Below are positions 12,617 through 57,219 of a stretch of DNA of 64,000 bases, piece by piece. The position numbers were made by a program, and so were the translations under genes. Source of the DNA: an uncultured Tolumonas sp. (GTDB lineage Bacteria > Pseudomonadota > Gammaproteobacteria > Enterobacterales > Aeromonadaceae); NCBI RefSeq assembly GCF_963676665.1, contig NZ_OY781371.1, positions 761,001-825,000 on the forward strand. Reading direction: 5' to 3'. The notes beneath the pieces are model-generated. The model had not been told where the DNA came from. It saw nothing but the letters and a program-made list of their open reading frames with translations, and made no database searches. Positions within the stretch are counted from its first letter, which is position 1. Every line of letters starts with the position of its first letter.

Positions 12617-12618
12617 GC

Positions 12619-13680: not shown

Positions 13681-13691
13681 GGAGTTTTATC

Positions 13692-14678: not shown

Positions 14679-15453
14679 GCCTATTTTAAGACACATTGTT
14701 GATGTGAATGACAAATTAGGTATTCCCTATTTTATTGCAGGTGCTACAGCAAGAGAGTTACTGCTATTTCATGTGTTTGGTCGCGATCCAGGAAGACAAA
14801 CAAAAGATATAGATACAGCTATATTTGTCTCGGGATGGGCTGAGTTTGATATGGTAAAAAATGTCATGCTCTGTGCTGGATTTGAAGCAACAAAAATTGC
14901 ACATCGTTTAGTCTATGAAGCTAATGGATTACCCGTCGATATTATTCCTTTTGGCGACATAGCGGATGAGCATGGCGATATCCAATGGCCGCCAGAGCAT
15001 ACTACGACGATGTCCGTTATGGGATTCAAAGAGGCTTATGATGCTGCCGTATTAATTGATATAGGCCAGCGTTATACACTGAAAGTTGCTTCATTGGCTG
15101 GAATGGCTTTATTGAAATTAGTGGCTTGGAGTGAACGTAGCAGCAGTAAAGATGCGTCGGATTTTCTGATAATTCTGCGTGAATACGCTGTCATTTATAG
15201 TGACCGCCTATGGGATGACGAGATACCGTCTAGCGCATTAAATTATGATATCGATCGACAAGCCGCATTTTTGCTTGGTAGTGATGTCAAATCGCTGTTG
15301 TCGGATGAAACGAAAGCCTTTTTGTGCGACTTACATCGCTTGCGAGCAGAAGAATTGGTAGACAGTATGATCCGAGTGCCAACACGAATTTCCGATAACG
15401 AGAAGTTACCGATGTTATTCGATGATTTTTGGCTCGGTGTTGGGGTGGGTTGA
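14632..15453 (+). CDS. AbiEii-like nucleotidyltransferase toxin
   Basis: 273 residues. The N-terminus carries a polymerase-beta-type nucleotidyltransferase signature: GIPYFIAGATAREL followed by RQTKDIDTAIF, the paired Asp-Ile-Asp being the metal site. The usual Gly-Ser of the family reads Gly-Ala-Thr here. Later come LPVDIIPFG and a helical C-terminal region. AbiEii-class toxins transfer nucleotides to tRNA or other targets and mediate phage abortive infection; the substrate of this one is unknown. It starts inside the antitoxin gene (47-base overlap), so the pair is co-translated. The lineage may be a DUF1814-like relative rather than classical AbiEii. Confidence 0.72.
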   Translation: MNNIYTLQNLLRPEFEPILRHIVDVNDKLGIPYFIAGATARELLLFHVFGRDPGRQTKDIDTAIFVSGWAEFDMVKNVMLCAGFEATKIAHRLVYEANGLPVDIIPFGDIADEHGDIQWPPEHTTTMSVMGFKEAYDAAVLIDIGQRYTLKVASLAGMALLKLVAWSERSSSKDASDFLIILREYAVIYSDRLWDDEIPSSALNYDIDRQAAFLLGSDVKSLLSDETKAFLCDLHRLRAEELVDSMIRVPTRISDNEKLPMLFDDFWLGVGVG

Positions 15454-37079: not shown

Positions 37080-39590
37080 ATGATACAAAGGAATATTGCG
37101 TATAAAATATATACAAACGGAACAGAAGAAACAGCCACACAGGTTATTATCGCTACAACGCCAACGGCTGATGATTTGAACGAAATTGCCTCATTTCCTA
37201 ATGCGTATGATGCCGCAAATTACGCCAATGCCATTTTCTCCGCGCAAGCTATTTTAATTCTGTCTCCATCTGATCGAGCTATTTCGTTGATTAAAACAGC
37301 GAAGAAATTCGAGCAAGTCATCGAAATCAATGAGCAACGCTTTGATCTGAAAACTACGTCAATTCGTGATGTCGCGGTATTAATACTAAGGCATGCTAGT
37401 TGCCATGATGAGATCATGGATGCACTGAGCATCTTTGTTGATACGCTTGCGACAAAAGTGTTAAAGCATGTTGTGACTGAAGATATAGCAAGAGAAGAAA
37501 TTAACGAGATTGCAGCAGAAAGTGGAAGTCAGCTCGATGTGGTTAGCATCGGAACTGAACACTTGAACCATGTGATCACGGAAAAAAAAGAAGCGTTCAG
37601 ACCGCTGCACACAATTACGTTGTTAGAGAAAAACGTTAGTCTATTAAGTCCGCTATCAGGGCCTGAATTCGTGGCATTGGCGGTACAGGCGTATCGAGCA
37701 GGGGAAAAAAGAGTGTTTGCTCTTTCCGGATCGATGGGCAGTGGTAAAACATCCAGTAAGTTGATCCCACTTTTCAATGAAATGACATCACTGGGTGCTG
37801 ATCCGCTGTATCTGACGGCTCGACGCTCACTCGTTTCATCGTTCATTGATGATCCGCGGCATTATAGGTTCGAGGGTGAAAAGTCCAGCCAAGGCACTAT
37901 TGGGGTAATTAACACCGTATTAAGTGATTTTGCTGATAAGAAGACGCATGGACTGTTAGTAATTGATGAACTGATGTGTTTACGTGCTCATCGTGCTTAT
38001 CATAATAAACATATTACCACTTACGCAAAATACTGGCGGGAACTGGAAGCCTTGATCCGGAGAAGCCAGATCGTGGTAGTCGCAGACGCTAATTTAAATG
38101 ATGACGCTGTAAACTGGTTGCACGAACTCACTGGCCAAGTCGTCAACGTATTGGCTGATGATGTTACTCAAAACATATTATTAAATTATTATAAGTCCAG
38201 TCATCAGTTGTTTAATGATGCCATAGCAGAGTTGCAAGCAGGAAAAAAAATCGTTCTCTTTACAGATGAAAAGCGGGAAAAAGCATTTGAATATAAAGCT
38301 ATTTTTGAAAGGAATATCTCGGGAATAAACGTAAAAGTGATTGATAGCTATTTTGTTACGACTATGGAAGGGCAACAATTTGTTCAGCAGATCAACGAAA
38401 AAAGCATGGAATATGACTTACTCATTATCACCCCGGTGATCAGTAGTGGTGTGAGTATTACCAATGACCACTTCAGCAAGGTGTATCTATTCAGTGCAGG
38501 TACGTTGATTGCCCCAGACTTACTACAAAGTATGCGTCGGTTTCGAAAAGTCAGCACTATTGCTTTCGCTTTTATTGGTTGGCGAGTTCAACCGATGCAG
38601 ACATTGCCAATCGCCATTGTTACCAGTGAACTGAATAAAATAACGTGTATTGAGAACTATAATACCCAGCAATATCACGACAGGATGAACGATCCGTGTG
38701 TCCATAAAGTGGCAGCACAAATCGCGTTTGAAAATGATCTTCGAAATAACCATATTGCCGCAGTTCTGACGATGGCAGAGCAAAAAGGATTCACGGTTGT
38801 TGACATAGAAACAGACTCTACCGTATCAAAGGAAGGTCAAAAAGCAGTACGAAAAGGCAAAATTGAACACAAACAAGAAAAGAATAGCGTCATTAAAGCA
38901 GCGCCACATTTAACCAGCAAACAATGTGCGCAACTGGATAAAAAGAGTACAAAAACGCGGGCTGAAAGGCTTATTTTGATAGCACAACGTATTCGGACGG
39001 TACTTAACATTAAAGAGATCACCGATCCTGACATTGCTGCTTATGAAAAAGGTATTGGCAAAACAATAGAAAATCTTCACTCAATGAGGGGCTTTTCGGG
39101 GCAAATCAGTGACAAGATTAGTACTCAGCAAGCAGCTAGAGAGACATTGGTTCAGATAATATTTAGTCGGTTGGGGATCGACATAAAATCGATGACTGGC
39201 ACGTATAACAATGAAAAGGCGATGGATGTACTCACCTTCATCAAAGAGGGTGAACTGAGCATAAAAACGCAAGCAGGGCGGGTGAGCAATGTGTCAGCCA
39301 GAACAGCGTATGAAGGTAATTTCGGCAAACTGAGCGCGTTCACTAACTCCGTTAAATTTATGAGTCATTTTTTAAGTCATTTCGGCTTGAGCCATGAAAC
39401 AGGACCGAAAGAAAAAGACGCTAATGGAAAAAGAAACTATACATACCGAATCAAAACAACGGCACGATACGACTTAGCGATGCATTATCTCAATCCATGT
39501 GCAACTAAACCCAGGCCCATGGATCTTGCAGTAAATGTTAGGGATACAAGCAACAAAGAGGGAAAGGCTGTTTTAGCGGAAATGGCTTAA
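37080..39590 (+). CDS. Superfamily 2 helicase of the origin-binding/plasmid replication type
   Basis: 836 residues. An uncharacterised N-terminal region of about 200 residues precedes a helicase core: Walker A GSMGSGKTSSK (Lys223), Walker B VIDELM (Asp296-Glu297), a motif V-like VISSGVSITND, and motif VI LLQSMRRFRK (about 483-489). This combination resembles origin-of-replication-binding proteins and the CyRepA1-type plasmid replication proteins. A basic C-terminal region of about 300 residues has no domain I know. It is likely an initiator or remodelling helicase of an integrated plasmid- or phage-satellite-like element. No primase motif is obvious. Divergent from the GRP-motif protein. Confidence 0.72.
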   Translation: MIQRNIAYKIYTNGTEETATQVIIATTPTADDLNEIASFPNAYDAANYANAIFSAQAILILSPSDRAISLIKTAKKFEQVIEINEQRFDLKTTSIRDVAVLILRHASCHDEIMDALSIFVDTLATKVLKHVVTEDIAREEINEIAAESGSQLDVVSIGTEHLNHVITEKKEAFRPLHTITLLEKNVSLLSPLSGPEFVALAVQAYRAGEKRVFALSGSMGSGKTSSKLIPLFNEMTSLGADPLYLTARRSLVSSFIDDPRHYRFEGEKSSQGTIGVINTVLSDFADKKTHGLLVIDELMCLRAHRAYHNKHITTYAKYWRELEALIRRSQIVVVADANLNDDAVNWLHELTGQVVNVLADDVTQNILLNYYKSSHQLFNDAIAELQAGKKIVLFTDEKREKAFEYKAIFERNISGINVKVIDSYFVTTMEGQQFVQQINEKSMEYDLLIITPVISSGVSITNDHFSKVYLFSAGTLIAPDLLQSMRRFRKVSTIAFAFIGWRVQPMQTLPIAIVTSELNKITCIENYNTQQYHDRMNDPCVHKVAAQIAFENDLRNNHIAAVLTMAEQKGFTVVDIETDSTVSKEGQKAVRKGKIEHKQEKNSVIKAAPHLTSKQCAQLDKKSTKTRAERLILIAQRIRTVLNIKEITDPDIAAYEKGIGKTIENLHSMRGFSGQISDKISTQQAARETLVQIIFSRLGIDIKSMTGTYNNEKAMDVLTFIKEGELSIKTQAGRVSNVSARTAYEGNFGKLSAFTNSVKFMSHFLSHFGLSHETGPKEKDANGKRNYTYRIKTTARYDLAMHYLNPCATKPRPMDLAVNVRDTSNKEGKAVLAEMA

Positions 39591-40175
39591 CTATTTTTGT
39601 GGCGGTTGACCCAAGGAGGGGGACTGAACTGCGAAATCATATGACTAATATTACAGTTCTGTTGGGTTAAATCAGTGTGGAACAGTGTGCAATATAGCCA
39701 TATGTTGAGATGAATGACGTACCAGCTGGATGATGATACATCTTCAGCGTTTGGTTTCTGGGTGGCCTCATCACCAAAATCGTAAAATTATCGTGTTGAC
39801 GAGCTTCGCTGAACAAAACATCCAAGAAGGTGGCTCTTGCCATTCATCATCAACTCAGTTCGTTTTCATGATATCAAATAACGAATATACGATATCAAAT
39901 TATGCTAATGAAATTTATTAATGTATTCATGGTTATGTATTTAAGTATATTTATTGATTACGAAATAGATCTTAATTATAGATCGAATTGTTTATCTGCA
40001 TAATATGATTTAAATCTCATTTATTTAAAAAAACAAATGATATTTAAATAAGGCTGATATTTAAATATATCAATTGACATGGTGGTTTTTATATTAATTG
40101 GTTTGACAAATTCTTTGTGTGGAGTTAGCTTTTAAATGTCACGTTGATTTAATTTGTTGCCTTACTGGAGGCCGT
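39591..40175. other. AT-rich intergenic region upstream of a small operon
   Basis: 585 bases between the helicase and the operon starting at 40176. It contains paired direct repeats (GATATCAAAT twice near 39870-39900, and TGATATTTAAATA at 40038-40050 and 40055-40067) and TTGACA hexamers. Short frames here have no ribosome-binding sites. No RNA gene is recognised. Confidence 0.5.
40038..40131 (+). promoter_or_regulatory. Promoter with tandem 13-bp direct repeats
   Basis: TGATATTTAAATA occurs at 40038-40050 and 40055-40067, a 17-base period. A TTGACA lies at 40103-40108 with a weak TAGCTT 17 bases downstream; another TTGACA is at 40074-40079. The repeats could bind an activator or repressor of the operon beginning at 40176. 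Confidence 0.45.
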
Positions 40176-40397
40176 ATGCAAATTATTAGTGTTATATTCT
40201 ATGTTGTATACCTTTCATTAATACCCACGATATCGAGCTTTATGGGGGTATTATTTAGCTGGACGCATATTGTTTTTTTTCATTCGGCGATGAGCTGGGT
40301 ATACCGGCATGATGATGCAACAATAGGTATCTTGCTTGTTCCCACGATGCTATATATCTGGCCCTATTGCCGTAATAACATCCTTCGGTATTATTAA
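40176..40397 (+). CDS. Small membrane protein (73 aa)
   Basis: ATG 40176 follows GGAGG by 4 bases. Two hydrophobic segments (IISVIFYVVYLSLI and a stretch around IGILLVPTMLYIW) separated by a short loop suggest two membrane helices. No family is recognised. It starts an apparent operon with the genes at 40410 and 40855 (12-base gap to the next). Confidence 0.6.
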   Translation: MQIISVIFYVVYLSLIPTISSFMGVLFSWTHIVFFHSAMSWVYRHDDATIGILLVPTMLYIWPYCRNNILRYY

Positions 40398-40409
40398 AAA
40401 GGGATCGAC

Positions 40410-40787
40410 ATGTGCAGCGACACGGTTTTAAGTATCCGTCATGCAAATATTCATATATTTCATATATTAAATGATGAGTCCTACTGCCCATTAACGAATG
40501 AACAGGTCTTCTCTCGTATTACTAAAAGGCTTATGCAGCGCTTTAACGGTTACGGCAATGAGTGGACCGTTAATTACACACAGTTACTGCTACAAAGCGT
40601 GATAGATAGTGCGTTAGTGCCTCTGTACGACGCTGATATTTGTAATTGCGGTTATATTAAAGATAACAAGCTACGCACAGTCTGTTGGCGTGCATCACTG
40701 TGCGAGGATGGTCGAATTCAAGTGCTATTCATGACTGAATATGAATTTGATAAAATAAATGAAAAAGAGATTTGGTTGTTTAAATGA
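40410..40787 (+). CDS. Hypothetical protein (125 aa)
   Basis: AAGGGA lies 5 bases before the ATG. The protein is soluble, with Cys-rich patches (DADICNCGYIKD and TVCWRASLCEDGR) and an acidic C-terminus. I recognise no domain. It lies between the small membrane protein and the phosphatase-like gene on the same strand. Confidence 0.6.
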   Translation: MCSDTVLSIRHANIHIFHILNDESYCPLTNEQVFSRITKRLMQRFNGYGNEWTVNYTQLLLQSVIDSALVPLYDADICNCGYIKDNKLRTVCWRASLCEDGRIQVLFMTEYEFDKINEKEIWLFK

Positions 40788-40854
40788 TATCGAATTAAAA
40801 ACCAAACAAATTTAAAAATAATATATTTATTCCATTTTTATGGAAGGAGTTTCT

Positions 40855-41550
40855 ATGTGCGGACTAACACAACACAAACAAATCCCATTAAACAATACCA
40901 GCGGGAAAGATTATTTTGTCGGCCCCATCCAAGGGGACTGGATGATGTTGTTAGATCACCTCGATGATCGTGGTTTTAGATATGATCAAGATAGGTTATT
41001 TAGTACCGGCAATATCATTGGGCACGGCATTGACTCCTTTGGCGCGACCAAATTACTAGAGTTCGACTGGTTTTATTCCGTGCATGGTCAGCAAGAGTTT
41101 TGGTTATTAGTCGGCGAAACAGACTCGGATACCAGAAAGGAACATATTACCAACCAAGGTGGAAATTGGATAAAAGATGCCAACTACATGCAGTTGGACA
41201 AAATTACCAAAAATATCCGTCAGAAAATGCCACTTGCAATTACCATTGAACAGACCTGGGGGCAAATTGGCTTAGTGCATTCACAAGCGCCAAGCCATTG
41301 GGATTTGCTATCAAAATCTTATTTAACCAAGCAAAGCCGCCTGCCGTTTTTTACACGGAATGAAGAGTTTTACCATGCAAGACGGGGGAGTGGACTCGTC
41401 ACCAGTGGAGTTGATTTTGTCATTCTGGGGCACGAACAACAGGACCGAGTTGTGCGAAGCGGAAATCGTATTTGGCTAAACGGACATAATAAGGACGGAT
41501 TTACTGTGTTGGCTGCGGAAGAGTTAGTGTCAGTTTGTGCGGCTGCGTAA
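40855..41550 (+). CDS. Lambda-type Ser/Thr protein phosphatase homologue with inactivated active site
   Basis: 231 residues from ATG 40855, with GGAAGGAG 5 bases upstream. The sequence follows the lambda phosphatase (PPP) fold end to end: IPLN-n-T-n-GKDYFVG, then DRGFRYDQDRLFS, then DWFYSV, GGNW, GLVHSQAP, GHEQQ and GNRIW. The metal and catalytic signatures are replaced: GDxHG reads GPIQG (Pro24, Gln26), GDLVDRG reads GNIIGHG (Asn53, Gly56, His57), and GNHE reads GQQE (Gln79, Gln80). His142 and His193 remain. With four of six metal ligands changed it should not hydrolyse phosphoesters and may instead bind or shield a phosphoprotein (inference). Confidence 0.8.
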   Translation: MCGLTQHKQIPLNNTSGKDYFVGPIQGDWMMLLDHLDDRGFRYDQDRLFSTGNIIGHGIDSFGATKLLEFDWFYSVHGQQEFWLLVGETDSDTRKEHITNQGGNWIKDANYMQLDKITKNIRQKMPLAITIEQTWGQIGLVHSQAPSHWDLLSKSYLTKQSRLPFFTRNEEFYHARRGSGLVTSGVDFVILGHEQQDRVVRSGNRIWLNGHNKDGFTVLAAEELVSVCAAA

Positions 41551-41680
41551 AATCGGAACATGGGTAATTCGCGAAGCGGCAATAAAAAATTCATCCAATC
41601 CAACTGGAATATTGCTGCCTAAAATCGTTTTTTCTTGAGCTTCGGGCCAGTATCATGTGGCTCAGTAAGCGACACAAAAC

Positions 41681-41914
41681 ATGGATGACACAATGTTTTA
41701 TGAGATAGAAAATGCGGTCATGAAAAAATTTAGCAAAGATGCACTGCTTGAAATATGCGGCCATCTAGCTAATGACGGGGCTGACAATGCTGACCTTGTC
41801 GAAGCATTTCGTGAACTGAATGCATCATTGATGGATAGTACTTATCGTTCAGTAGTTGATGACGTGATATCTGCTTTAGATGCTTATGATATAGCTAAAT
41901 CTCTAGAAACCTAG
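41681..41914 (+). CDS. Hypothetical acidic protein (77 aa)
   Basis: A short helical, acidic protein (HLANDGADNADLVEAFRELN). No convincing ribosome-binding site precedes ATG 41681. No family recognised. The following 245 bases to the LysR gene hold no gene I can support. Confidence 0.4.
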   Translation: MDDTMFYEIENAVMKKFSKDALLEICGHLANDGADNADLVEAFRELNASLMDSTYRSVVDDVISALDAYDIAKSLET

Positions 41915-42159
41915 CGTTTGACATACATTGATCGATTCGATCATATCGATTAAATCGAATGATATTTTTTGGCGAGTACAAAGAATACGTTGACTGTTAA
42001 CGAAGCAAAAAAACACTTCGGCTGATTGTTGCTACCAAATCTCTAGCTTATTTTTGCCCCAAAGTGAGTTTTGAATGTGGCCTGAAGAATTCAGATGAAC
42101 TAAATTTGACTAGTCAAATATCACCACCTTTACTAGGCCACACTCTGTTTTCGCAGCAA

Positions 42160-46584: not shown

Positions 46585-47412
46585 ATGGATAATCAAAGTA
46601 GTTCTATTGAGTTGAATGACGGTAACAAAATTCCGCAAATCGGCTTAGGCGTATGGCAAGCAACGCCTGAACAAACCGCCATGGCTGTTCGTGAGGCTTT
46701 GCAGGTTGGTTACCGACATATTGATACGGCTTCAATCTATCGCAATGAGTCTGGCGTGGGTGTCGGTTTCAGGGAAAGTGGTCTACCTCGACAAGAAGTA
46801 TTTATCACCACCAAAATTTGGAATGACGATCAAGGTGATACATTAACCAGAGATGCGCTCTCAAAAAGTTTAGAACGGATGAAACTAGATTATATCGATT
46901 TATTGTTGATCCATTGGCCTGTTCCTCATCATGGTTTATTCATTGAAACATGGCAAACGATGATTGATCTTCAGAAAACAGGTCTCATCCGCTCAATTGG
47001 TGTTTCAAATTTCACTGAATCCAATCTGAAACAGATCATCGATGAAACTGGTGTGACGCCGGTATTAAACCAAATTGAATTACACCCTTATCTTCAACAA
47101 TCTGCAATGCAACAGGTACATTCAAGATTAGGCATAAAAACTGAAGCCTGGAGTCCATTAGCCCAGAACCAAGCGATCAGTGATGCGGCGATCATTCAAA
47201 TTGCGAGAAAACATAATAAAACACCAGCACAGATCGTTATTCGCTGGCATCTAGAAAATAATACGATTGTTATACCGAAATCAGTCACTCCTAGTCGTAT
47301 CAAAGAAAACATTGATGTATTTAATTTTACCTTGGATATCGAAGATAAGGCTGCTATTGCAAAACTGGATAAGAATCAAAGATTGGGGCCTGATCCATTA
47401 ACCTTTGGTTAA
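46585..47412 (+). CDS. Aldo/keto reductase, DkgA/DkgB-like
   Basis: 275 residues from ATG 46585, with AAGGAT 6 bases upstream. AKR signatures: GYRHIDTASIYRNESGVG (Asp and Tyr of the tetrad), FITTKIWND (Lys), LLLIHWPVP (His), GLIRSIGVSNF and IVIPKSV. The E. coli relatives reduce 2,5-diketo-D-gluconate, methylglyoxal and other aldehydes with NADPH. It ends the LysR-controlled operon and is followed by a strong terminator. Confidence 0.92.
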   Translation: MDNQSSSIELNDGNKIPQIGLGVWQATPEQTAMAVREALQVGYRHIDTASIYRNESGVGVGFRESGLPRQEVFITTKIWNDDQGDTLTRDALSKSLERMKLDYIDLLLIHWPVPHHGLFIETWQTMIDLQKTGLIRSIGVSNFTESNLKQIIDETGVTPVLNQIELHPYLQQSAMQQVHSRLGIKTEAWSPLAQNQAISDAAIIQIARKHNKTPAQIVIRWHLENNTIVIPKSVTPSRIKENIDVFNFTLDIEDKAAIAKLDKNQRLGPDPLTFG

Positions 47413-47427
47413 AAACTTTTCTCGCTT

Positions 47428-47466
47428 ATGTAAGGAAAAATCCGAACAGTAGATTTTTCCTTACAT
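47428..47466 (+). terminator. Strong terminator after the aldo/keto reductase
   Basis: Perfect 15-bp stem ATGTAAGGAAAAATC / GATTTTTCCTTACAT with a 9-base loop, 16 bases after the stop codon. It closes the SDR-MFS-MFS-AKR operon. Confidence 0.75.
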
Positions 47467-48132
47467 GACTTAATTCATGAGCTTTTAGATCAACATGGGA
47501 ACGTACACCAGATCCGACATCACAAGAATTGTATTAAGGAACTAACAATACATAAGCTTATTAATAGATTTCTAAATTAGCAAAACCAATAACTCAGAAA
47601 TGTCCATTACCGTGACAGCTCGATGCTCGCTGTCACAAAATTGTTCCATCTTAAATCACGTCCGTTTGTATTCTTACGCCACAAAACAGCTTTCAGTGAA
47701 CTCTTTGTTCATGCGATATTTTTTCATCATCGCGGAATATCAATTTTTCCCACAAAAGGCCAAAGAATCCTCAAATAAGTCCTTTTTCGCCAATTATGGG
47801 TGTTTGCCCATATTGACTTATATAGAGACAACTTCGGGTTACATACGATGGAAAAATGAGCATTCATTATGATTGGTTTTGTTTGGGGCAGATTGGTGGT
47901 TTATAGCAGGCTGTTTTAGGCTCAAATTGAGTTTTTTGGCGGATGGGGGGAATTATTATTTCATTTATTAATTATTTTGGTTGCACCGCAAGTAGGTCTT
48001 CGATATAATTTAATTAAATTGGGCTTTCCTTTGATTTTGCGCTTGCAAAACGCATTGCGTTAGTTTATGGTTGAATTGTGCTCGCGAATGGTCGCTTGCT
48101 ACAGAGCTAATTCATCCTAAAGGAACCTATCT
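47467..48132. other. Intergenic region
   Basis: About 665 bases with no gene I can support. An 8-bp hairpin GTGACAGC/GCTGTCAC lies at 47612-47636. A 90-codon frame across it has no ribosome-binding site and unremarkable composition. AT-rich promoter-like sequence precedes the gene at 48133. Confidence 0.4.
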
Positions 48133-48588
48133 ATGAGAAAAAATTTAAAAGCTACATCTGCTCCAAAGTTCATTCAGCTGCAACCTTTTGATACTGCTAC
48201 ACAAATCATCAACTCCTTCTCTGTTCAGGAACGTATTACGTTGCTGATGGTCTCGATAGAGACGCTTAACTCACTGACTAACCCTGACAATATCTACTTG
48301 GATGACCCGTTTGAGCTGTTTGCCAGCTGCATGGGAATTTCCGAAGATGTCCGCTTACACGCTGATGAAGCAGAACAAGTTCTGTGCGATAAAGTGCGAG
48401 CATTAAGTGATGAACAGTACAATGATCTGTTCAATACTTGCTTTTCGTTTTGGGGTTGGGAAAACAAATCCGCAATGGAGTTTTTCTTCGCAAATTCCGA
48501 AGTCGATACTGTTTCACCATTGTTACGTTGCGCTCTGTGCGTGAGTGCATCCAGGATGGCAACTACGATCCCTGCTGTTCTACGCTAG
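48133..48588 (+). CDS. Hypothetical protein (151 aa), orphan cluster gene 1
   Basis: AAAGGAA lies 9 bases before the ATG. A soluble protein without a recognised domain. The segment ALSDEQYNDLFNTCFSFW resembles ALDESDKTTLALACTSFW near the C-terminus of the gene at 50569, a faint similarity that may mean a shared domain. The C-terminus (RCALCVSASRM) is Cys-rich. It opens the orphan cluster 48.1-51.7 kb. Confidence 0.6.
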   Translation: MRKNLKATSAPKFIQLQPFDTATQIINSFSVQERITLLMVSIETLNSLTNPDNIYLDDPFELFASCMGISEDVRLHADEAEQVLCDKVRALSDEQYNDLFNTCFSFWGWENKSAMEFFFANSEVDTVSPLLRCALCVSASRMATTIPAVLR

Positions 48589-48660
48589 GCATTGATGAAT
48601 AAACAGTAGTCTCTCTTGGCTGCTTATTAAAAGTTTTTTGCACCCAATAAAATGTTTAGG

Positions 48661-48691
48661 TTATTGAAAATATTCACATTTCAGTGAAGGG
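48661..48691 (+). promoter_or_regulatory. Shared palindromic element, copy 1
   Basis: TTATTGAAAATATTCACATT (48661-48680) is identical to copy 2, and the palindrome TTCACATTTCAGTGAAGGG occupies 48673-48691 (TTCAC-N6-GTGAA, then GGG). It lies 137 bases before the P-loop kinase gene. Further similarity continues about 15 bases downstream (TTGTCC). Confidence 0.6.
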
Positions 48692-48827
48692 TTCAGTGTT
48701 GTCCAAAACAGGGATTTCCGATGATTGGAATTAATGGTCAAAAAATGAAAGAAATTAATTAACAGTGTTCTGCGGGATAAATTAGTCAGAAGTTGCCACG
48801 TAGAACACTATTTTGGAGGGGAAAATA

Positions 48828-49220
48828 GTGCGTATTTATATTGTTCGTGGGCTTCCTGGGAGTGGCAAGAGTACTAAAGCGAAAACATTGAACGGTATTC
48901 ATCTGGAAGCAGATATGTTTTTTTATCGCGATGGTGAATATTGCTTTGATAAAACAAAAGTAAGAGACGCGCATCGGTGGTGTCAGAAAACAGCTCGTCA
49001 GGCAATGGAGAGCGGCATGGATGTTGTTATTGCTAATACGTTTTGTGAAAAAAGGGAGATCCAGCCTTATCTAGATTTTGCGAAAGCGACTGGGCATCAG
49101 GTGAATGTATATACCATGAAAAATAAGTACGGCTCTATTCATGGGGTACCAGAAGAAACCATTCAGCGCATGAGTACGCGTTGGGAACATTACGAAGGAG
49201 AAGAGATATGCGTTGATTAA
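48828..49220 (+). CDS. P-loop kinase, polynucleotide-kinase-like AAA ATPase
   Basis: 130 residues from a GTG at 48828, which follows GGAGGGG by 6 bases. It starts MRIYIVRGLPGSGKSTKAK, a Walker A motif at the extreme N-terminus, followed by HLEADMFFY (Asp of the substrate site) and VVIANTFCEKREIQPYLDFA. This is the small P-loop kinase type often carried by phages and related to the T4 polynucleotide kinase domain. It would phosphorylate a nucleic acid 5' end, nucleotide or small substrate; the sequence does not say which. Orphan cluster gene 2. Confidence 0.8.
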   Translation: MRIYIVRGLPGSGKSTKAKTLNGIHLEADMFFYRDGEYCFDKTKVRDAHRWCQKTARQAMESGMDVVIANTFCEKREIQPYLDFAKATGHQVNVYTMKNKYGSIHGVPEETIQRMSTRWEHYEGEEICVD

Positions 49221-49343
49221 AACAGGTTGATTTTTGAATTTGGATGTCTCGATTGCATTATGAAGACATCTACACAGAGGCATTGCTGATCTTCTTCAGT
49301 AATGTGGTTATAGAAAAACACACAAAAACGAACTGATTGTAAT

Positions 49344-49374
49344 TTATTGAAAATATTCACATTAACGTGAAGGG
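49344..49374 (+). promoter_or_regulatory. Shared palindromic element, copy 2
   Basis: The 20 bases at 49344-49363 are identical to copy 1, followed by the palindrome TTCACATTAACGTGAAGGG (49356-49374). It lies 69 bases before the gene at 49443 and 124 after the kinase gene. Confidence 0.6.
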
Positions 49375-49442
49375 CACCGTTTTGTCTGAAATCAGAAGGG
49401 CTTGCAATCAGAACTAATTTTTATATTGAATAAGGAATATAT

Positions 49443-50333
49443 ATGGGATTTAAACGTAATGAATTTGGTGTGCTTTTAACCAGTGATTTGGGGGGCGACA
49501 GTGATCAATCAGACATATTATTAAAAGTACAAGCGAATGGACTAATTGCAAAAGCGGTACAAAAAGGCAAATTGCCTCGGGCATATGACTCATTAGCGTG
49601 GATGAAAATCAATAACTACATTGGTAAAAAAAGGATTGGAACCGCTTTGTATCACGAAATTTATGATATGACGCCAGATGGAAAATCTGTACTGGTGAAT
49701 GTCAGAGAAGTTGAAGGTACCCGCTACGGCATTAAAACAACAGCAAACACCTATTATTTGCTACATCGGCACGGTGTTGGTACCCGTGTAGAGTTAGCCA
49801 ATAAAGCTGTTGCAGCAAAAGCAGCCAAATCAGTGGGTGATGAATTAGGCATTGCAATTGATATCCTTCAGGGTAAAGCCAAACTGGTTGTTGACAGCTT
49901 AAAACCACGAAAGGGGTATAAGCTGGTTAAAAAAAATCAAGAAGAGGCGTTGGTATCTGTTTGGGATGGTAGTGAATGGGTAATGAACGTGCGCCGAGGG
50001 GAAAAGGCAAGCGATGATCATTCCAGTGGTTTTTATTACTATCGAACTATTAATGATGCATTAACAGCTGCCAAAAATAATGATGTGTTTGGCTATCGAC
50101 GTAGTCATGAAGCATTGGTGTTGATTGAGGTTGAAGCAACCGGAATTGAATATGAGTTGGATGATGGGAAGCTGTGCACTACTTATCTGAAACCTATTCG
50201 TATCGTTGCTAATCTCGATTGGGAGCCAGATGATGATGCTTTTGAGAGTTTCAAGTTATCCGATCAAGAACGACATACATCAACTCGGGATTATTCACCG
50301 GCACCTAAGCTTTTGGATGTGGTTAATATTTAA
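49443..50333 (+). CDS. Hypothetical protein (296 aa), orphan cluster gene 3
   Basis: AAGGAA lies 7 bases before the ATG. There is no signal peptide or membrane helix. The N-terminal half is mixed; the second half contains GSEWVMNVRRGEKASDDHSSGFYYYRTINDALTAA and ALVLIEVEATGIEYELDDGKLCTTYLKPIRIV, which looks like a compact beta-rich domain seen at the end of some phage proteins. No known function. It sits between shared elements 2 and 3. Confidence 0.65.
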   Translation: MGFKRNEFGVLLTSDLGGDSDQSDILLKVQANGLIAKAVQKGKLPRAYDSLAWMKINNYIGKKRIGTALYHEIYDMTPDGKSVLVNVREVEGTRYGIKTTANTYYLLHRHGVGTRVELANKAVAAKAAKSVGDELGIAIDILQGKAKLVVDSLKPRKGYKLVKKNQEEALVSVWDGSEWVMNVRRGEKASDDHSSGFYYYRTINDALTAAKNNDVFGYRRSHEALVLIEVEATGIEYELDDGKLCTTYLKPIRIVANLDWEPDDDAFESFKLSDQERHTSTRDYSPAPKLLDVVNI

Positions 50334-50392
50334 GCCAATGATCTTTATGACTATGCATGTAGTCGTTAATTAAATTTCAGATTTCGTATTTA

Positions 50393-50411
50393 TTCATCAT
50401 TCGATGAAGGG
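50393..50411 (+). promoter_or_regulatory. Shared palindromic element, copy 3 (diverged)
   Basis: TTCATCATTCGATGAAGGG, same length as copies 1 and 2: TTCA-N8-TGAAGGG, with the arms extended to TTCATC/GATGAA. It is followed by TTGTTCTTGCC, again like the other copies. It lies 158 bases before the gene at 50569. Confidence 0.5.
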
Positions 50412-50568
50412 CTTGTTCTTGCCTGAATATGCGAAAATTGGATAACGGAATATTTTTTTAAAATATTCAAAACCAGATTTTGATAAAAAATAAATATTAT
50501 TATCAATAACATAAAGTTTTATGATGAATTTACATCAAAAAATACTATTAATTTAAAAGGAAAATACG

Positions 50569-51714
50569 ATGAACGATATGAATAAAATATCTTTAAACTG
50601 CTTTAATAATGAAGAAATCGACATAATGCTGGAATTCGCCTATGACGTTGTAACTTTCTGCGAAATGGACAGTAAAGACGAGCGCATCCAATACTATGGT
50701 GGTTTGATTGAAGGGCCTAGTTTGGAAATTGGTCAGTATTTTTTGATCGGAAACCTGTTTCTCTGTGGAACCACCTTACACAAGCAGTTTGTAGCCAAAT
50801 TTTTTGCGTTATCACTGGCGGAGCGTGAGGAGTTGATGGAGTTTTTCTGCGACTGCCAGACCGATGATGATCTGATGCATTCGTTGTATGAGTATATTGA
50901 TCAACATATTGAAATCATTGATCGCCATGCGGCTAGTTTGGCTCAGGATGTGGAGATTAAAGAGGCTATACGTCTCGCTAAAACGCGAAAACCACAACTA
51001 CCGCAGGTATATCATGAACAAATGTCCATGTCTTTTATTCCTGAATATTTAAATCTCACTTGGGCAGAGCAGCACATTGTCATGCTTGCAAGCCGTCCAT
51101 TCTTTAATGCGATACAAAGCAATCAGTCAATTTCTACTACCGAATTTTTAAGGTTTTTAGCTCAAATGGTTGACCGTGAAGAGAGCTGCGGTTTTGAGCG
51201 TGGATGTGAGGCGCACCTATCTTTAATTGGGAAATTAAATGCTTTAGCAACACACCAAATGGAGCAGGTTTTTCAGTTTGTTATGTTGTCATGGCATGAA
51301 TACTTTGGTGAGCTTTCGGAAATGAATATGCGGTTTTCTGAAGAAAAATTGAAAACTATTTTGAAACCATTCCATCGCATGCAACAGATTGCGCTTATTC
51401 ATGCGGCGCAGAGCTGTAAACGTTTTGTGGCAGTAGGCCTTCAAGATTTGATGGAATGTTTCAGTAGTAGCCTTTATAGCAGTGACTGTGATTTTGGCGG
51501 ACTTATCATTTCAGAATCATATGAGCATAAAGTTTTGTTGCGTCAATATGAAGCGTTAGATGAATCCGATAAAACCACTTTGGCTTTAGCTTGTACGTCA
51601 TTTTGGGTATATCCAAACAAGCAAAAAGAGAAATTTGCATGGGTCTTTAATGCTTCATTCCCAATGACAGAAAAGAAGTATGTTCTTTCTCAGTGTTCTA
51701 AGATATACAGATGA
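50569..51714 (+). CDS. Hypothetical protein (381 aa), orphan cluster gene 4
   Basis: AAAAGGA lies 8 bases before the ATG. An all-helical, acidic, soluble protein; blocks such as FFALSLAEREELMEFFCDC and YEALDESDKTTLALACTSFW look like repeated helical units, and the latter resembles part of the protein at 48133. No domain recognised. It ends the cluster and is followed by a terminator at 51809. Confidence 0.65.
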   Translation: MNDMNKISLNCFNNEEIDIMLEFAYDVVTFCEMDSKDERIQYYGGLIEGPSLEIGQYFLIGNLFLCGTTLHKQFVAKFFALSLAEREELMEFFCDCQTDDDLMHSLYEYIDQHIEIIDRHAASLAQDVEIKEAIRLAKTRKPQLPQVYHEQMSMSFIPEYLNLTWAEQHIVMLASRPFFNAIQSNQSISTTEFLRFLAQMVDREESCGFERGCEAHLSLIGKLNALATHQMEQVFQFVMLSWHEYFGELSEMNMRFSEEKLKTILKPFHRMQQIALIHAAQSCKRFVAVGLQDLMECFSSSLYSSDCDFGGLIISESYEHKVLLRQYEALDESDKTTLALACTSFWVYPNKQKEKFAWVFNASFPMTEKKYVLSQCSKIYR

Positions 51715-52156
51715 TCTCGTGTAAAGTATTGAATTTTCATAATAATCCGAAAACTTATTGAATAAAAATAGTAAATAGAGCTTACGGTAACATGAATTTC
51801 ATTCGCTGACAGAAAGCCGTTATTTCATAGAAATGCGGCTTTTTGTCATTAAACATCCTATCCAGAATGCTTCAGCAAAATACTGGTATCAGCAATCGAA
51901 GTAACAAAAGTGCGGGCAAATAGTGCTGCCTGCGCACTAACTTAAGCTATTGATATACAATGATATATTTTTTATATCCAGATTTTAGACGATTCAATGT
52001 TGGTGAGCATTTAAAACAGCGCCTTTAGGTACAGTAACCGCTGCAAAGAGAAACATGGGCCATTTCTCGCGGCAATGGGCTGCGAGGGTGACAAAAATCA
52101 GGTTCTTCTCTGGGGCTATCATTTCAGCAACGCTGGTAAATAACAAAGCATAGTAA
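51715..52156. other. Intergenic region with terminator
   Basis: About 440 bases. Besides the terminator at 51809-51848 I see no gene or RNA. The right part shows no recognisable structure before the isochorismatase gene's 3' end. Confidence 0.4.
51809..51848 (+). terminator. Rho-independent terminator
   Basis: GACAGAAAGCCG pairs with CGGCTTTTTGTC (12 bp with one G-T), loop of 16 bases, with the T run inside the 3' arm. It closes the orphan cluster. Confidence 0.7.
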
Positions 52157-52723
52157 TTAGTGCGTGCGCTGGTTCATTTCTGTCAGCAATTCGTTAGTTG
52201 TCATGACAACGACAGGGGTCTTAGGTGTGATGAGATTAGCCCAGCTCCAGTTGTGGTGGTCAATAATTGATTTTGCATTCAAGTGCGGACGATCGGCGGT
52301 TGTATGGGCATCGGCAATCGCAACGACATTAAAATTATGACTTACCGCTGAACGCAATGTGGTATCGACGCAAAAATTGGTCGCACAACCAGTAATAATG
52401 ATGCGCTCGGGTGCCAACGCTGCCAGTACTTGGCTTAACACCGTATCGTAAAAAGAGTCGCAGATAGTTTTCTCAACAACGATATCAACGGGCTGTTTCT
52501 CTAATTCATCGAGGATGGTCCATCCTTCAGTATGCGGTGTTAATCCTTCCTCATCATGACCATTGTGTTGAATGAAGATAACTTTACCGGCGTTATTTCG
52601 AACAGCTGTTGAGAGTTGATTTATGTTCGCGATAACTGCGCTGCTGTTATAACGGGGTGTCTGGAATAGTGCTTTTTGCATATCAATGACGATCAATACA
52701 TCCACAATGGTCAACCTATTCAT
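52157..52723 (-). CDS. Isochorismatase-family cysteine hydrolase
   Basis: 188 residues. Catalytic Asp in LIVIDMQKALF, Lys in VVEKTICDSFYDT, and the Cys nucleophile in ITGCATNFCVDTTLRSAV. The family includes nicotinamidase, isochorismatase and N-carbamoyl hydrolases; the exact substrate is not clear. A GTG at codon 8, with AGG upstream, is an alternative start. Confidence 0.9.
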   Translation of the reverse strand: MNRLTIVDVLIVIDMQKALFQTPRYNSSAVIANINQLSTAVRNNAGKVIFIQHNGHDEEGLTPHTEGWTILDELEKQPVDIVVEKTICDSFYDTVLSQVLAALAPERIIITGCATNFCVDTTLRSAVSHNFNVVAIADAHTTADRPHLNAKSIIDHHNWSWANLITPKTPVVVMTTNELLTEMNQRTH

Positions 52724-52763
52724 GAATAAGAGAGTTCAAAATACGGAATTTGTATTATGTAAA

Positions 52764-53228
52764 TCAAACAAATGCGCGGGAGAGAGTGGCCGGATTACCG
52801 ATATAGGTACCTGGCGTGGTGATATCTTTCGTTACCACGGCGCCAGCGCCAATAACAGCACCAGAACAGATCTTGACCGGCAATATAGTCACATTAGAAC
52901 CAATGGTGACATTATCCGCGATGCTCGTTTTTCCCCAAGATTGCGGATCAGGATTGGGTACGCCTGTTTTGAATAAATCATTGGCAAACATGACGCCATG
53001 CCCGATGAAGCAATCATCGCCGATCGTGACAAATTCGCAGATAAAAGTATGCGATTGCACTTTGGTCCGTTTACCGATAACGACGTTTTTCTGGATCTCA
53101 ACAAATGGACCAATAAAGACATCATCATCAATCTGGCTGCCATACAAATTCACGGGTTCGATAAGGGTGACATTATGACCAAACTGCATGTTGTGAATAC
53201 CGGATCGACGCACTATTGGTTCTGCCAT
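52764..53228 (-). CDS. Hexapeptide-repeat acyltransferase (left-handed beta-helix)
   Basis: 154 residues built of hexapeptide repeats (IDDDVFIGPFVEIQKNVVIG, VTIGDDCFIGHG, IGSNVTILPVKICSGAVIGAG). FANDLF and the IGNPA ending resemble WbpD/WbbJ-type sugar N- or O-acetyltransferases, which form trimers and use acetyl-CoA. No surface-polysaccharide genes are nearby, so the acceptor is unknown. Confidence 0.88.
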   Translation of the reverse strand: MAEPIVRRSGIHNMQFGHNVTLIEPVNLYGSQIDDDVFIGPFVEIQKNVVIGKRTKVQSHTFICEFVTIGDDCFIGHGVMFANDLFKTGVPNPDPQSWGKTSIADNVTIGSNVTILPVKICSGAVIGAGAVVTKDITTPGTYIGNPATLSRAFV

Positions 53229-53278
53229 TTTTTGGCTCCGTTGTTGTGTTCTTTTTTTGATATTCAGGATCGTTATTT

Positions 53279-54073
53279 TTAAGCTTGAGCAAAAAAGGTT
53301 TCCTGTTTCTTATGCGGCCCATCATTACCGTCCAATTGCATAAGTGCTAACACTGAGGACTGAGCTAATGATGCAACCATCTGTCGATTGAAGAGGGCAT
53401 TTTTTTCGTCACTAATGTATTCGGAAATAGATACCCATTTCGCATCCGCGATCTCGTCCGTATCCTGAATACAGATCTGCTCGGATAGTGGCGTTAATCG
53501 ACACACAAAATAGAGGTTAGATTTTCCAAACTGGAATGGATGTTTAGTGGTAAAGCCGACTATCGATCCAAACGTTGATTCAACTCCCGTTTCTTCCAAT
53601 ACTTCTCGGACTATAGCTGATCCAATACGCTCGCCTAGTTCGATATGACCGCCGGGTAATTTATATCCCTTCATGCCGTGTTCTTTGATCACTAAGATCT
53701 GCTGGTGTTGATTGCACACGATCGCGCCAGCCCCCAAGGTATGGGTCGGGATGAAAGGAATAAATGTAGTTGAAGGCGCTTTACGGATCAGTATTAATTC
53801 TGATTCCAGACAGTTATGAAAAACAAAACCCAGATCGGTGGCGGGTTTGATCAAATGTGATTTATTAATTGGTAGCGTCAACCAGATCAGGTTTTTATTT
53901 TCAGTGATAGCAAAGTGTGTGATTTCAGAGAGGTGTTTATGAAATTCATCAGCACAGTCAGGAATAGAAAACGGATCGACAATAACACCATTGAATTTAT
54001 CTAACTCAAATTTCACAGCAGAGTCCTTTTGAAGATTTAAAGCAAAAGCGTTCAAGATGAAGGCAGGTATCAC
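53279..54073 (-). CDS. Nudix hydrolase with NUDT6-like N-terminal domain
   Basis: 264 residues from a GTG overlapping the TGA of the acetyltransferase gene (GTGA). Residues 20-110 (KFELDKFNGVIVD, then TLPINKSHLIKPATDLGFVFH) match the domain found before the Nudix fold in NUDT6-like proteins. The Nudix box is complete: GGHIELGERIGSAIVREVLEETGV contains the Gly, Glu, Arg-Glu and Glu-Glu pattern. It cleaves a nucleoside diphosphate linked to another group; the substrate is unknown. Confidence 0.9.
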   Translation of the reverse strand: MIPAFILNAFALNLQKDSAVKFELDKFNGVIVDPFSIPDCADEFHKHLSEITHFAITENKNLIWLTLPINKSHLIKPATDLGFVFHNCLESELILIRKAPSTTFIPFIPTHTLGAGAIVCNQHQQILVIKEHGMKGYKLPGGHIELGERIGSAIVREVLEETGVESTFGSIVGFTTKHPFQFGKSNLYFVCRLTPLSEQICIQDTDEIADAKWVSISEYISDEKNALFNRQMVASLAQSSVLALMQLDGNDGPHKKQETFFAQA

Positions 54074-54504
54074 TCATTGCTGATGATGTATCCCTGCGCG
54101 ACAGCATTTGCTTCATTTTCAAAGATAGCCATCGCGGTGGTCATGGGTTTAAAGCCTAATTTTTGGTAAAAAGGTTCTTTCCCAGGAACGGCATAGAGGA
54201 TGATTTTTTTGTGGCCTGCGGATAAAGAGATCAATCGTGAGACGATCTCTTTGCCGATGTGTAACCCTTGATATTCAGGTAAAACGGCGACATCACAGAT
54301 ATAAGAACAGTCAACTCCATCCGCTAATGCGCGCCCCGCCGCCACTAAGTTATCTGCATCATAAACAAAACATTTAAACATACTGTTGTTGAATGCGATT
54401 TTTAAACCGTCTGCGGTTTTGTTGCCAAGTGGTGCTGCACGGTACATGGCAGCTAGTGCGTGCCAGTCCAGGTCATCAGATACGAAACGCCATGTTAATT
54501 CCAT
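54070..54504 (-). CDS. GNAT-family N-acetyltransferase
   Basis: 144 residues. The acetyl-CoA-binding motif is VLPEYQGLHIGKEIVSRLI (the Q-x-x-G/A-type loop), followed by YAVPGKEPFYQKLGFKP typical of GNAT C-termini. It is translationally coupled with the Nudix gene. Substrate unknown. Confidence 0.9.
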   Translation of the reverse strand: MELTWRFVSDDLDWHALAAMYRAAPLGNKTADGLKIAFNNSMFKCFVYDADNLVAAGRALADGVDCSYICDVAVLPEYQGLHIGKEIVSRLISLSAGHKKIILYAVPGKEPFYQKLGFKPMTTAMAIFENEANAVAQGYIISNE

Positions 54505-54585
54505 CTTATTGACCCAACCAAAATGACATTGAGCACAATAAGACGGATGCAGTCATGTTGGTGTGTCGTGAGGTAACAGGGCATC

Positions 54586-54870
54586 TTATTGGAGTGACAC
54601 AACGATAACTTTTTCAATGCCATGTTCTTTTACTCGCAAAGTCGATGAGTAGTGCATGTGGTTTTTGTTTGCCTGAATAATGGCAGATAAGTCGATCCCT
54701 TTATCGGCTAATGCAGACAGCATTGATGTAGGCATAAGTTTCTTTGCTGTCCTAACAACGAAGAAAGGAATGTTGGTTGTTGAGTTGCATTGACCATTGA
54801 TGAATTTTTCAATAACAAGAGTACCCATCTTTACCTCATCGAATGATTGACCCACAAAAAGCTTTTCCAT
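54586..54870 (-). CDS. Hypothetical protein (94 aa)
   Basis: A small soluble protein beginning MEKLFVGQSFDEVKMGTLVI and ending KVIVVSLQ. Not recognised. It lies 82 bases before the acetyltransferase gene, and its upstream region is split by a group II intron. Confidence 0.5.
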   Translation of the reverse strand: MEKLFVGQSFDEVKMGTLVIEKFINGQCNSTTNIPFFVVRTAKKLMPTSMLSALADKGIDLSAIIQANKNHMHYSSTLRVKEHGIEKVIVVSLQ

Positions 54871-55004
54871 AGACGCCTCGTTTTATCATGCCGAAGGACA
54901 TTTTTGTTAGCAAATGAAACCTGATAATTCATAGACGTATATTTTTGTGAGCATCTGAAGTAATGTCGGATAGGCGACACCTGTTACCAAGTGCCGCCCT
55001 CCTA

Positions 55005-55039
55005 AGAACCGTACGTGCAACTTTCACTGCATACGGCTC
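55005..55039 (-). ncRNA. Group II intron domain V
   Basis: A 35-base hairpin: GAGCCGTATGC pairs with GCACGTACGGTTC across a central bulge and a GTGAAAGT loop region. This is the catalytic core of the ribozyme, located between the maturase stop and the intron 3' end. Confidence 0.85.
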
Positions 55040-55080
55040 AAGCCTCCGCTAAGGCGTTTTACGTTACCCAGCAATTTCTC

Positions 55081-56556
55081 TTATAAAGCAGCTAATACAG
55101 GTTCAAACCAAGAGTTTCTGCTTTCCTTTTTCGGTTTCCTCTCCGCCAAATAGGATTGGTATTGAGGATCGTAAGGCGTTGCTTCACTTCTGATTTTCAC
55201 ATGTCGTTTTATCGGCGTTTGAGCAATCTGAATCAGATTAAAGTGACAATCCATATTGGTGATTTTCTGCCAACCGTGGAATTGCCATTCACCTCTACTG
55301 TTCATGTAGTATTTTCGACGTACCCAGTCTTTGTTTTTCGTTGGGTGACGTCTTACCGCCCACCGCCATAACAACCAGAAAAGTTGATGGCCTACATAAC
55401 CGAAAGTTCGCTTTGCCACACTGTGACGATAATAATTCGCCCAACCTCTCAGCTTCGGATTCAGAATTTTAATCAGATCGTTTACTGGCGTGGTTGCGTG
55501 TTTTCTGATGAGTTCGCGTAAGTTACTCAAGAATGACAGTACATTGCTCTTACTGGGTTTGATCAGCAGTTTGCCGTTGTACTTTCTGAGGTTGAACCCC
55601 AGAAAGTCAAAACCATCATTGATATGGGTGACATGCGTTTTCTCTTCAGAAAGTGTTAAGCCCCTTTCTTGTAGAAAACCAATGAGCTGCGGTTTGACTT
55701 CGTTCAGCAGGACTTCTTGCGAAGTTCCTGTGATCACAAAATCATCTGCGTATCCAATGAAGTGGATCTTATCGCCAGTTTTACCCGCTATCGACGTGAC
55801 CAGTTTTTCTAAACCGGCCAGTGTCAGTAACATCAGCGTTGGGGAGATGATACCGCCTTGCGGCGTTCCCTCTGCCGTATGGTAAAACATACCTTTATCG
55901 ATAAAACCACATTTCAGCCATTGCCTCAGCATTCGTTTATCCGTTTGAATGTTGTCGATCAACCATTGATGACCGATCTTATCGAAGCAGGCTTTAATAT
56001 CACCCTCAAGAACCCATTGCGCCGAACGTTTTAAACACAAACATTTAAAGCATTGTGCAATCGCATCCGCAGTACTCCGATTTGGTCGAAAACCGTAACT
56101 GTTTGGGTCGGCAATCGTTTCAGAGATAGGCTCCAAGGCAAGAAGATGGAGTGCCTGTTGCGCTCTATCTATCATGCACGGAATGCCTAGCGGTCTGAGT
56201 TTGCCGTTTTTCTTAGGGATATAGATACGCCTGAGCGGTTTGGCTTGATAGCCTTTTCTGCTCAGTTGATTAACCGCCGCCATACAACGGGCATCCGTAT
56301 TCCAAATGATGCCGTCGATCCCGGGTGTTTTACTGCCTTTATTTTGAGAGACTCGTTTCACAGCAAGAAGTTTTGCTGCTTTTGAGTGAGTCAGTATCCA
56401 CTGCAACGCTTTCGCTTTGCTGTGTTTACCTTCTCGGGTTGCTTTTGCAATGCGCATTTGAAGCTTTAAAACGTGCTGCTCAATCGCCTTCCAGTTGATG
56501 GATTGCCATGGGCTGCTACTGTCAGGAGAGGCACTAACTTCAGCAGAAGTTACCAT
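55081..56556 (-). CDS. ltrA: Group II intron reverse transcriptase/maturase
   Basis: 491 residues from ATG 56556, preceded by AAGGAG. RT domain blocks include SKTPGIDGI, PLRRIYIPKKNGKLRPLGIP, GTPQGGIISP and the catalytic YADD in FIGYADDFVITG. The X/maturase region (LRGWANYYRHSVAKRTFGYV) follows. No HNH endonuclease domain is seen at the C-terminus. The protein splices its host intron and reverse-transcribes it into new sites. It appears intact. Confidence 0.95.
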   Translation of the reverse strand: MVTSAEVSASPDSSSPWQSINWKAIEQHVLKLQMRIAKATREGKHSKAKALQWILTHSKAAKLLAVKRVSQNKGSKTPGIDGIIWNTDARCMAAVNQLSRKGYQAKPLRRIYIPKKNGKLRPLGIPCMIDRAQQALHLLALEPISETIADPNSYGFRPNRSTADAIAQCFKCLCLKRSAQWVLEGDIKACFDKIGHQWLIDNIQTDKRMLRQWLKCGFIDKGMFYHTAEGTPQGGIISPTLMLLTLAGLEKLVTSIAGKTGDKIHFIGYADDFVITGTSQEVLLNEVKPQLIGFLQERGLTLSEEKTHVTHINDGFDFLGFNLRKYNGKLLIKPSKSNVLSFLSNLRELIRKHATTPVNDLIKILNPKLRGWANYYRHSVAKRTFGYVGHQLFWLLWRWAVRRHPTKNKDWVRRKYYMNSRGEWQFHGWQKITNMDCHFNLIQIAQTPIKRHVKIRSEATPYDPQYQSYLAERKPKKESRNSWFEPVLAAL

Positions 56557-57219
56557 TTGCGTTTCTCCTTGAATAAAGTTCCTCAAATCATCTTGCAACG
56601 GGAGACCAGCCGGAAGTCAGCTCGCTTTCGCGCCAGATAACAACCTGTATCCGCATCATTACAATGTGGCATTCGCTTTTTCCAGCATCCTTTACCTGCA
56701 TTACTATCGGCTATCTTCGCAGACAGCTTTCCCAGAGGGAGCAATACAGGCTTACCCTGTTCCGTATGTCACGCAATGTCAGGTTAGATGCCCACTATAG
56801 TGCGGAGAGCGTATCGATCACGAAAGAGTATTGTCCAACCTCATTCCAACTCTCATGCCTTTTGGCCACAGCGTATTAACCACTTCCGCTGTTTCTCATA
56901 TAACGCACCTTGCATGGATTCACTTACGTTCATCATACTGACTCCCTAGCACTTACCCGAATTGTGGTTATCAGGAGGAGCATCCTCTCGCGATTCTGTT
57001 CCCGTTTGGCTTTTGCCGAACTTCGTTACATTGTCAGGCTCGCTGCTTTATTCAGAGCCTTAGGGTCATCTGGTGATACAGATGGTTCACTCTTATCGCG
57101 GTGAACAGCGCTTCATACGACCTCAGGTCGCACGAACAAAATTGAGTCATTTGAGTTTTCTTTTGTAAAATTAAAGCCTATAAATGTCAGCGTTTAATGA
57201 TCAACTTATTGGAAGAATA

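Follow-up and report, generated by a model that had tools for sequence, protein, structure and literature searches.

Within the window (the whole 64,000-nucleotide stretch of DNA analysed here, from an uncultured Tolumonas sp. with a 4.2-Mb genome in 23 contigs) lies a small, patchily distributed block of four forward-strand genes, one of them phage-borne and one encoding a phage-type kinase. Gene A (48133..48588; hereafter 48133) encodes a protein of 151 amino acids of no known family, with a weak C-terminal motif at residues 82-109 that may also occur in a phage protein family referred to below as the partner family. The kinase gene 48828 (48828..49220) specifies a P-loop protein of 130 amino acids of the AAA_33 or phage polynucleotide-kinase type, 49443 (49443..50333) a 296-residue member of a phage-borne family, and gene C (50569..51714; hereafter 50569) a protein of 381 amino acids, likewise of no known family, which sits where the phage partner would. 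An initial annotation of this DNA had described a palindromic control element, TTCAN8TGAAGGG, before three successive genes, and the motif was found before all three: at 48673-48691, 49356-49374 and 50393-50411, its end lying 137, 69 and 158 bases upstream of where 48828, 49443 and 50569, respectively, begin.

Copies 1 and 2 of the element (48661..48708 and 49344..49391, forward strand) are clearly related in sequence. Each carries the palindrome TTCAC-N6-GTGAA (48673-48688 and 49356-49371) followed by GGG; as annotated, they have the 20 bases TTATTGAAAATATTCACATT in common, and over their full length 39 of 48 bases are identical (81%), a score equalled by 0/200 dinucleotide shuffles (best shuffle, 29). 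Copy 3 (50393..50411, forward strand) consists of TTCATC-ATTC-GATGAA and GGG, so that both arms are altered relative to TTCAC/GTGAA yet still complementary (TTCATC/GATGAA). The longer arms attributed to this copy are indeed present, at 6 bp against 5 bp in copies 1 and 2, but what ties it to the others is the short motif: compared over 24 or 48 bases, it does no better, or little better, than shuffled sequence. Comparison of regions 1 and 3 gave best matches, in the register of the element, that 101/200 (24 bases) and 10/200 (48 bases) shuffles equalled; for regions 2 and 3 the counts were 25/200 and 18/200, with the best 24-mer lying off the element. The motif itself, picked after inspection, arises in 4/20,000 shuffles of the third intergenic region. 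A TTGTC-like hexamer follows each copy (TTGTCC, TTGTCT and TTGCCT), in agreement with the annotation.

A genome-wide scan, which had been proposed as a check, returned four exact matches to TTCAN8TGAAGGG, all on the forward strand, three at the block and one on contig C11; the backward (reversed) motif, scanned as a control over the same genome, gave none. A dispersed repeat of hundreds of sites is thereby ruled out, because the 24-base core, with up to three mismatches allowed, is found at copies 1 and 2 and nowhere else in the genome. An element-like match with two mismatches in genome G009 (L014) was taken as chance, as blastn detected no similarity to the window. Palindromy by itself is unremarkable, dyads this good being common in such DNA: the element ranks first among the dyads of the 160 bases preceding 48828, yet 85/100 shuffles contain an equal one, and before 49443 and 50569 the best dyad is another one, equalled in 33/100 and 6/100 shuffles. 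A known cis-acting RNA was rejected, since none of four Rfam matches obtained in 47400-52200 with E values of up to 5 covers an element, the nearest being sR58 (E 3.1) at 48717-48737.

The stretch 47600-48132 and the kinase gene occur in 3 of 11 genomes of the genus. These carriers are G000, G061 (the same species as the window genome) and G006 (another genome of the genus), and in all three copies 1 and 2 are present with equal spacing (683 bases). Towards both G006 and G061, homology begins at 47600-47601, at a perfect hairpin with 8-bp arms (47612..47636), to which a 47-bp stretch at another place in G006 is related. G061 is diverged over 47974-48083 and has 48084-54943 in common with the window at 98.1% identity. 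The nearest left neighbour differs in each genome, being of the aldo-keto-reductase type in the window, the major facilitator superfamily type in G006 and the sensor-kinase type in G061, as judged by eye from translations. In G006, where 48133 is 85% and the kinase 95% identical to the window, homology breaks off at the start codon (ATG) of 49443 and picks up again at 51756..51798 (forward strand, 86% over 43 nucleotides), and the intervening DNA holds a single gene, gene X (273 amino acids), whose product has 33% identity to 50569 across 161 residues. G006 thus lacks 49443 and copy 3, or these were gained in the window, and a different gene stands behind element 2. Element 2 and its leader are retained there up to the start codon, though the following gene differs, and copy 2 of G006, TTCACATTAATGTGAA, is a perfect 16-base palindrome. 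Elements 1 and 2 are identical to G006 at 67/70 and 63/66 positions, against 51/57, 91/99, 95/105 and 44/51 in adjacent stretches, and element 1 is identical to G061 at 69/70. This distribution is consistent with a block that may move as a unit. No DNA copy was found on plasmids, and no integrase or virion gene was recognised by Pfam among the four block proteins, smaller open reading frames lying outside the scan.

The gene 49443 is a phage gene, in line with one of the origins that the initial annotation had considered for the module. Its family has no match in Pfam, PHROGs or NCBIfam, and the sole plasmid relative found was WP_011798254.1 of Polaromonas plasmid pPNAP03 (27%). An alignment of these two proteins retrieved three viral contigs, and the enlarged alignment retrieved 13 IMG/VR contigs (L034-L046), those three included; 12 of the 13 viral relatives were aligned, at 34-51% identity. 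Terminase or portal genes were recognised by Pfam in 6 of 7 contigs tested (L036, L037, L038, L040, L043 and L044), the exception being the L042 protein. With 49443 alone as query no relatives were recovered on viral contigs, and phage records yielded none with 49443 or with a phage member as query. Searches of bacterial genomes found the gene in 1/369 of a class sample and 1/398 of a phylum sample, its own genome in each case, and a pattern search of genome contigs for chromosomal members gave L005 only. The predicted structure (predicted local distance difference test, pLDDT, 79.5; predicted template modelling score 0.54) resembles no solved structure at E 0.001, and PDB searches with 49443 and with 50569 and gene X gave nothing below E 0.1. 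Part of the model is like several predicted phage proteins, one of which is labelled DUF7666 (rank 10, E 3.2e-3). When 14 family members were compared with Pfam, no family matched more than three (best E 0.0037).

Downstream of the 49443-like gene, on the same strand and within about 450 bases, a partner of about 145 amino acids was found in 13/13 contigs, which are not independent, several being closely similar to one another. A small open reading frame intervenes in L037 and L041, the partner forms the C-terminal part of a 246-residue frame in L040, and the partners of L034, L044 and L045 were found by reading frames; L039 was left out of the companion alignment to the partner profile. The partner model is confident (pLDDT 91.4), and its first-ranked Foldseek match is AcrIE10 (probability 1.00, E 0.084, template modelling score 0.58 by query and 0.73 by target). 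Consistently, hmmsearch with the partner profile matched AcrIE10 at E 7.4e-6 (9m71) and 7.7e-6 (8ji9), so that by profile and predicted fold the partner family is related to this anti-CRISPR protein. AcrIE10 is described as binding Cas7e and blocking assembly of the type I-E Cascade (review PMC13131331; PMC12740422). The partner also stands behind a different first gene in two near-identical contigs, and relatives of it are carried by Xanthomonas conjugative plasmids (six records; L054:2845-3378 and L055:3001-3474), where neither of the two stretches examined shows a 49443-like neighbour. CdbA, a DNA-binding protein, was matched weakly by the partner profile (E 0.48), and this match was kept just as a lead for a DNA-binding N-terminus.

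A conserved leader of the form CCT..GCC-hairpin-GGC..AAGGAG, in which the ribosome-binding site pairs with CCT, precedes the start codon of the 49443-like genes of L034-L038 and L040-L045, with a hairpin further upstream in most contigs; located examples are L035:3221-3277, L039:3415-3483, L049:3124-3189 and L050:1077-1142. The leader model was built from 11 leaders, with L039 and L046 left out of the alignment, and it also finds L039 and the different first gene before the same partner in L049 and L050 (E 3.2e-7). It has no match in the window or before the L046 gene, and in seven contigs the leader has no Rfam match with E values of up to 0.5. Support from covariation is small (2/7 pairs), and the leader may represent a phage RNA for translational control that has not been described before. 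In a promoter search run without a shuffle control, promoter-like hexamer pairs with a palindrome in the spacer, which might act as an operator within the promoter, were seen some 100 bases ahead of the 49443-like genes of L037, L038 and L040; the spacer dyads were equalled by 1, 7 and 2 of 100 shuffles, respectively, and a comparable arrangement noticed by eye in L043 does not rise above shuffle level (65/100).

In the window, the partner's position directly after 49443 is held by 50569, and a weak 28-residue motif ending in FW or SW may be common to the partner family, 48133 and 50569, lying in the latter at residues 320-347, probably at 71-98 and doubtfully at 216-243. The faint motif that the annotation had noted in both 48133 and 50569 is present, at a weak BLASTP E of 0.004 in one comparison. 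Scored with a phage-only profile, 48133 (at residue 82) was equalled by 5/2000 shuffles and 50569 (at 321) by 32/2000, against 916/2000 for the kinase and 546/2000 for 49443 as controls. Profiles from the other window-type proteins, with segments chosen by eye, gave 0/2000 for each of 48133, 50569 and gene X, and combined profiles of phage and other proteins gave 0/2000 for 50569, 44/2000 for 48133 and 20/2000 for gene X. With a profile hidden Markov model of the phage units the counts were 0/500 for 50569, 4/500 for 48133 and at least 6/500 for gene X. When single units of 50569 were scored with the others removed, the first gave 13/1000 and the third 0/1000, and the middle one was not recovered.

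In profile-profile comparison, 48133 aligned in a register almost matching that of three parts of 50569, with column shuffles reaching the observed score in 0/100 cases for 48133 and in 0/100, 7/100 and 0/100 for residues 1-150, 150-255 and 245-381 of 50569; whole 50569 with gene X gave 2/100. These sequence comparisons are suggestive of 48133 and 50569 being distant relatives of the AcrIE10-related partner family. Among the proteins for which the initial annotation had called for remote-homology searches, 48133 and 50569 yielded no relatives on viral contigs, 50569 none in plasmids or phages, and 48133 none in plasmids (phage records not having been searched with it). BLASTP of 48133 with gene X gave E 0.64, and the best PDB match of the 48133 profile, an influenza hemagglutinin chain (E 0.008), was taken as chance.

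The assignment of 48828 as a P-loop kinase was confirmed by Pfam (AAA_33, E 4e-11; 43.8 bits against a curated cut-off of 27). The protein matches phrog_2071 at E 7.9e-32; its kinase family has members in 615 of the 50,697 phage records, and among the 15 phage matches listed identity reaches 47%.

Other accessory elements also lie in the window. Tn7-like transposition genes at 9765-13239 (TniB-like, Mu-transpos_C and TnsA-like) adjoin an IS21-like pair recognised by eye, and an AbiEi/AbiEii-type gene pair occupies 13662-15453, with AbiEii slightly under the cut-off. A group II intron with reverse transcriptase (54965-57085) lies just past 54943, where the G061 alignment ends.

Taken together, we read the block, with a probability of about 0.5, as a phage-derived accessory cassette in a variable chromosomal stretch, its elements serving as operators and its products having a phage-side function. 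That three genes stand behind copies of one element suggests that they are switched together, and a role for the elements as DNA operators seems more plausible to us than one as RNA. Separate transcription starts near the three elements would serve the genes 48133, 48828, 49443 and 50569; with every element bearing a dyad for a single shared regulator, the genes could be exchanged one by one and still be co-regulated. The common regulator is our inference: at the elements, neither a consensus promoter nor an Rfam family nor a regulator was detected. The task would probably be phage-side, either to overcome the defences of the host or to adjust its functions, and 49443 would act as a pair with the protein following it. 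A counter-defence role is our best guess by analogy, since the sole characterised relative in reach is an anti-CRISPR. A more elaborate version, in which relatives of the AcrIE10 fold occur as single (48133), double (gene X) and triple (50569) repeats and stand, with a phage-borne companion protein, each behind its own copy of one operator, so that genes for counter-defence could be swapped without leaving the shared control, seems to us unlikely.

Several observations weigh against the operator-controlled cassette. Conservation of the elements is mixed: element 2 is identical to G061 at 59/66 positions, a lower share than in the flanking stretches (97/105 and 51/51), and its palindrome has a changed arm in that genome (TTCAT/GTGAA). 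A consensus sigma-70 promoter scan of the region gave 6 sites against 15.2 expected, none at an element, and the z-scores of RNA folding are -0.59 for copy 1 and -0.53 for copy 2, both unremarkable, and -2.05 for copy 3. No regulator was identified, and scan and folding give no clear support to the control by a single regulator envisaged in the initial annotation. Upstream of the phage relatives of 49443, TTCAN8TGAA was found at 0/12 loci. As to the partner family, gene X was equalled by 277/2000 shuffles with the phage-only motif, the middle repeat of 50569 (7/100 shuffles) was not recovered in another test, hhalign probabilities of the partner with 48133 and 50569 were 7.1 and 0.9, neither protein matched AcrIE10 directly with E values of up to 10, and the partner profile had no match in the three carriers up to the same E. 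Mobility of the block is unproved, because in G006 and the window it lies in the same broad variable region, some kilobases downstream of a common stretch: the two genomes share sequence further left, matching window positions 37343-42060. Finally, Cas7e (PF09344) was detected in 0/3 carriers (G061 being 87% complete) and 1/11 genus genomes, and as a control in 2/14 named genomes; its absence from the carriers speaks against an anti-CRISPR role in the present hosts and leaves room for other targets or other hosts.

The initial annotation had also allowed for an anti-phage module, and a chromosomal defence island assembled from captured phage genes and used against incoming phages would fit the chromosomal setting, the Tn7-like genes and AbiE-type pair elsewhere in the window, four block proteins without an integrase or virion Pfam match, and the low identity of genes C and X at the same place. 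We consider it a doubtful explanation, less likely than a phage-side accessory or counter-defence function, since the nearest characterised relative of the phage partner family is AcrIE10, an anti-CRISPR; moreover, PADLOC recognises no family for 48133, 49443 or 50569, and for 48828 only a partial and a weak match. Even less probable is a toxin-antitoxin-like pair of 49443 and 50569 with passengers, autoregulated through the palindromes. The regular two-gene order in phages (13/13), the palindromes within promoter-like sequences of L037, L038 and L040 and the weak CdbA match would agree with it, whereas no toxin or antitoxin family was matched by 49443, 50569 or the phage pair, AcrIE10 is the best structural relative of the partner, the partner also follows another first gene, and in 6 of 12 upstream regions the dyads were equalled by at least 25/100 shuffles.

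The elements could alternatively be remnants of local duplication, upstream pieces copied along with genes and having no regulatory function. Such an origin would fit the 81% identity of copies 1 and 2, the divergence of copy 3, the lack of a promoter signal and the ordinary folding of the first two copies; the genes behind the elements, however, show no relation to one another, the two arms both vary from copy to copy yet stay complementary, and identity to G006 is about 95% in the elements, above that in adjacent stretches. We hold this origin improbable.

An undescribed phage family, that of 49443, is now tied to a regular partner of an AcrIE10-related family, and the function of the pair is directly testable because AcrIE10 has a solved target complex. 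If the elements are operators, the block would show how accessory phage genes in the chromosome of a bacterium can be exchanged under one shared switch. A literature search, in which subscription papers are poorly covered, gave no title or abstract opening describing the 49443-partner pair and no paper on DUF7666.

Compared with known systems, part of the 49443 model resembles the DUF7666-labelled phage protein, whereas the 49443 members have neither a consistent Pfam family nor a solved relative. The protein of 48828 matches the kinase domain of phage polynucleotide kinases (AAA_33; phrog_2071, phrog_505), but has a length of only 130 amino acids, and a phosphatase or ligase part has no Pfam match. 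The phage partner family matches AcrIE10 (PDB 8JI9, 9M71) by profile and predicted fold, whereas 48133 and 50569 would have only a short motif in common with the partner family and have no direct match to AcrIE10; 50569 may hold two or three copies of that motif. The portions of the AcrIE10 literature available make no mention of a 49443-type neighbour. Anti-CRISPR operons are known to be inserted in phage structural gene clusters, and the phage pair likewise stands beside terminase or portal genes, in most contigs with a candidate promoter-like sequence of its own.

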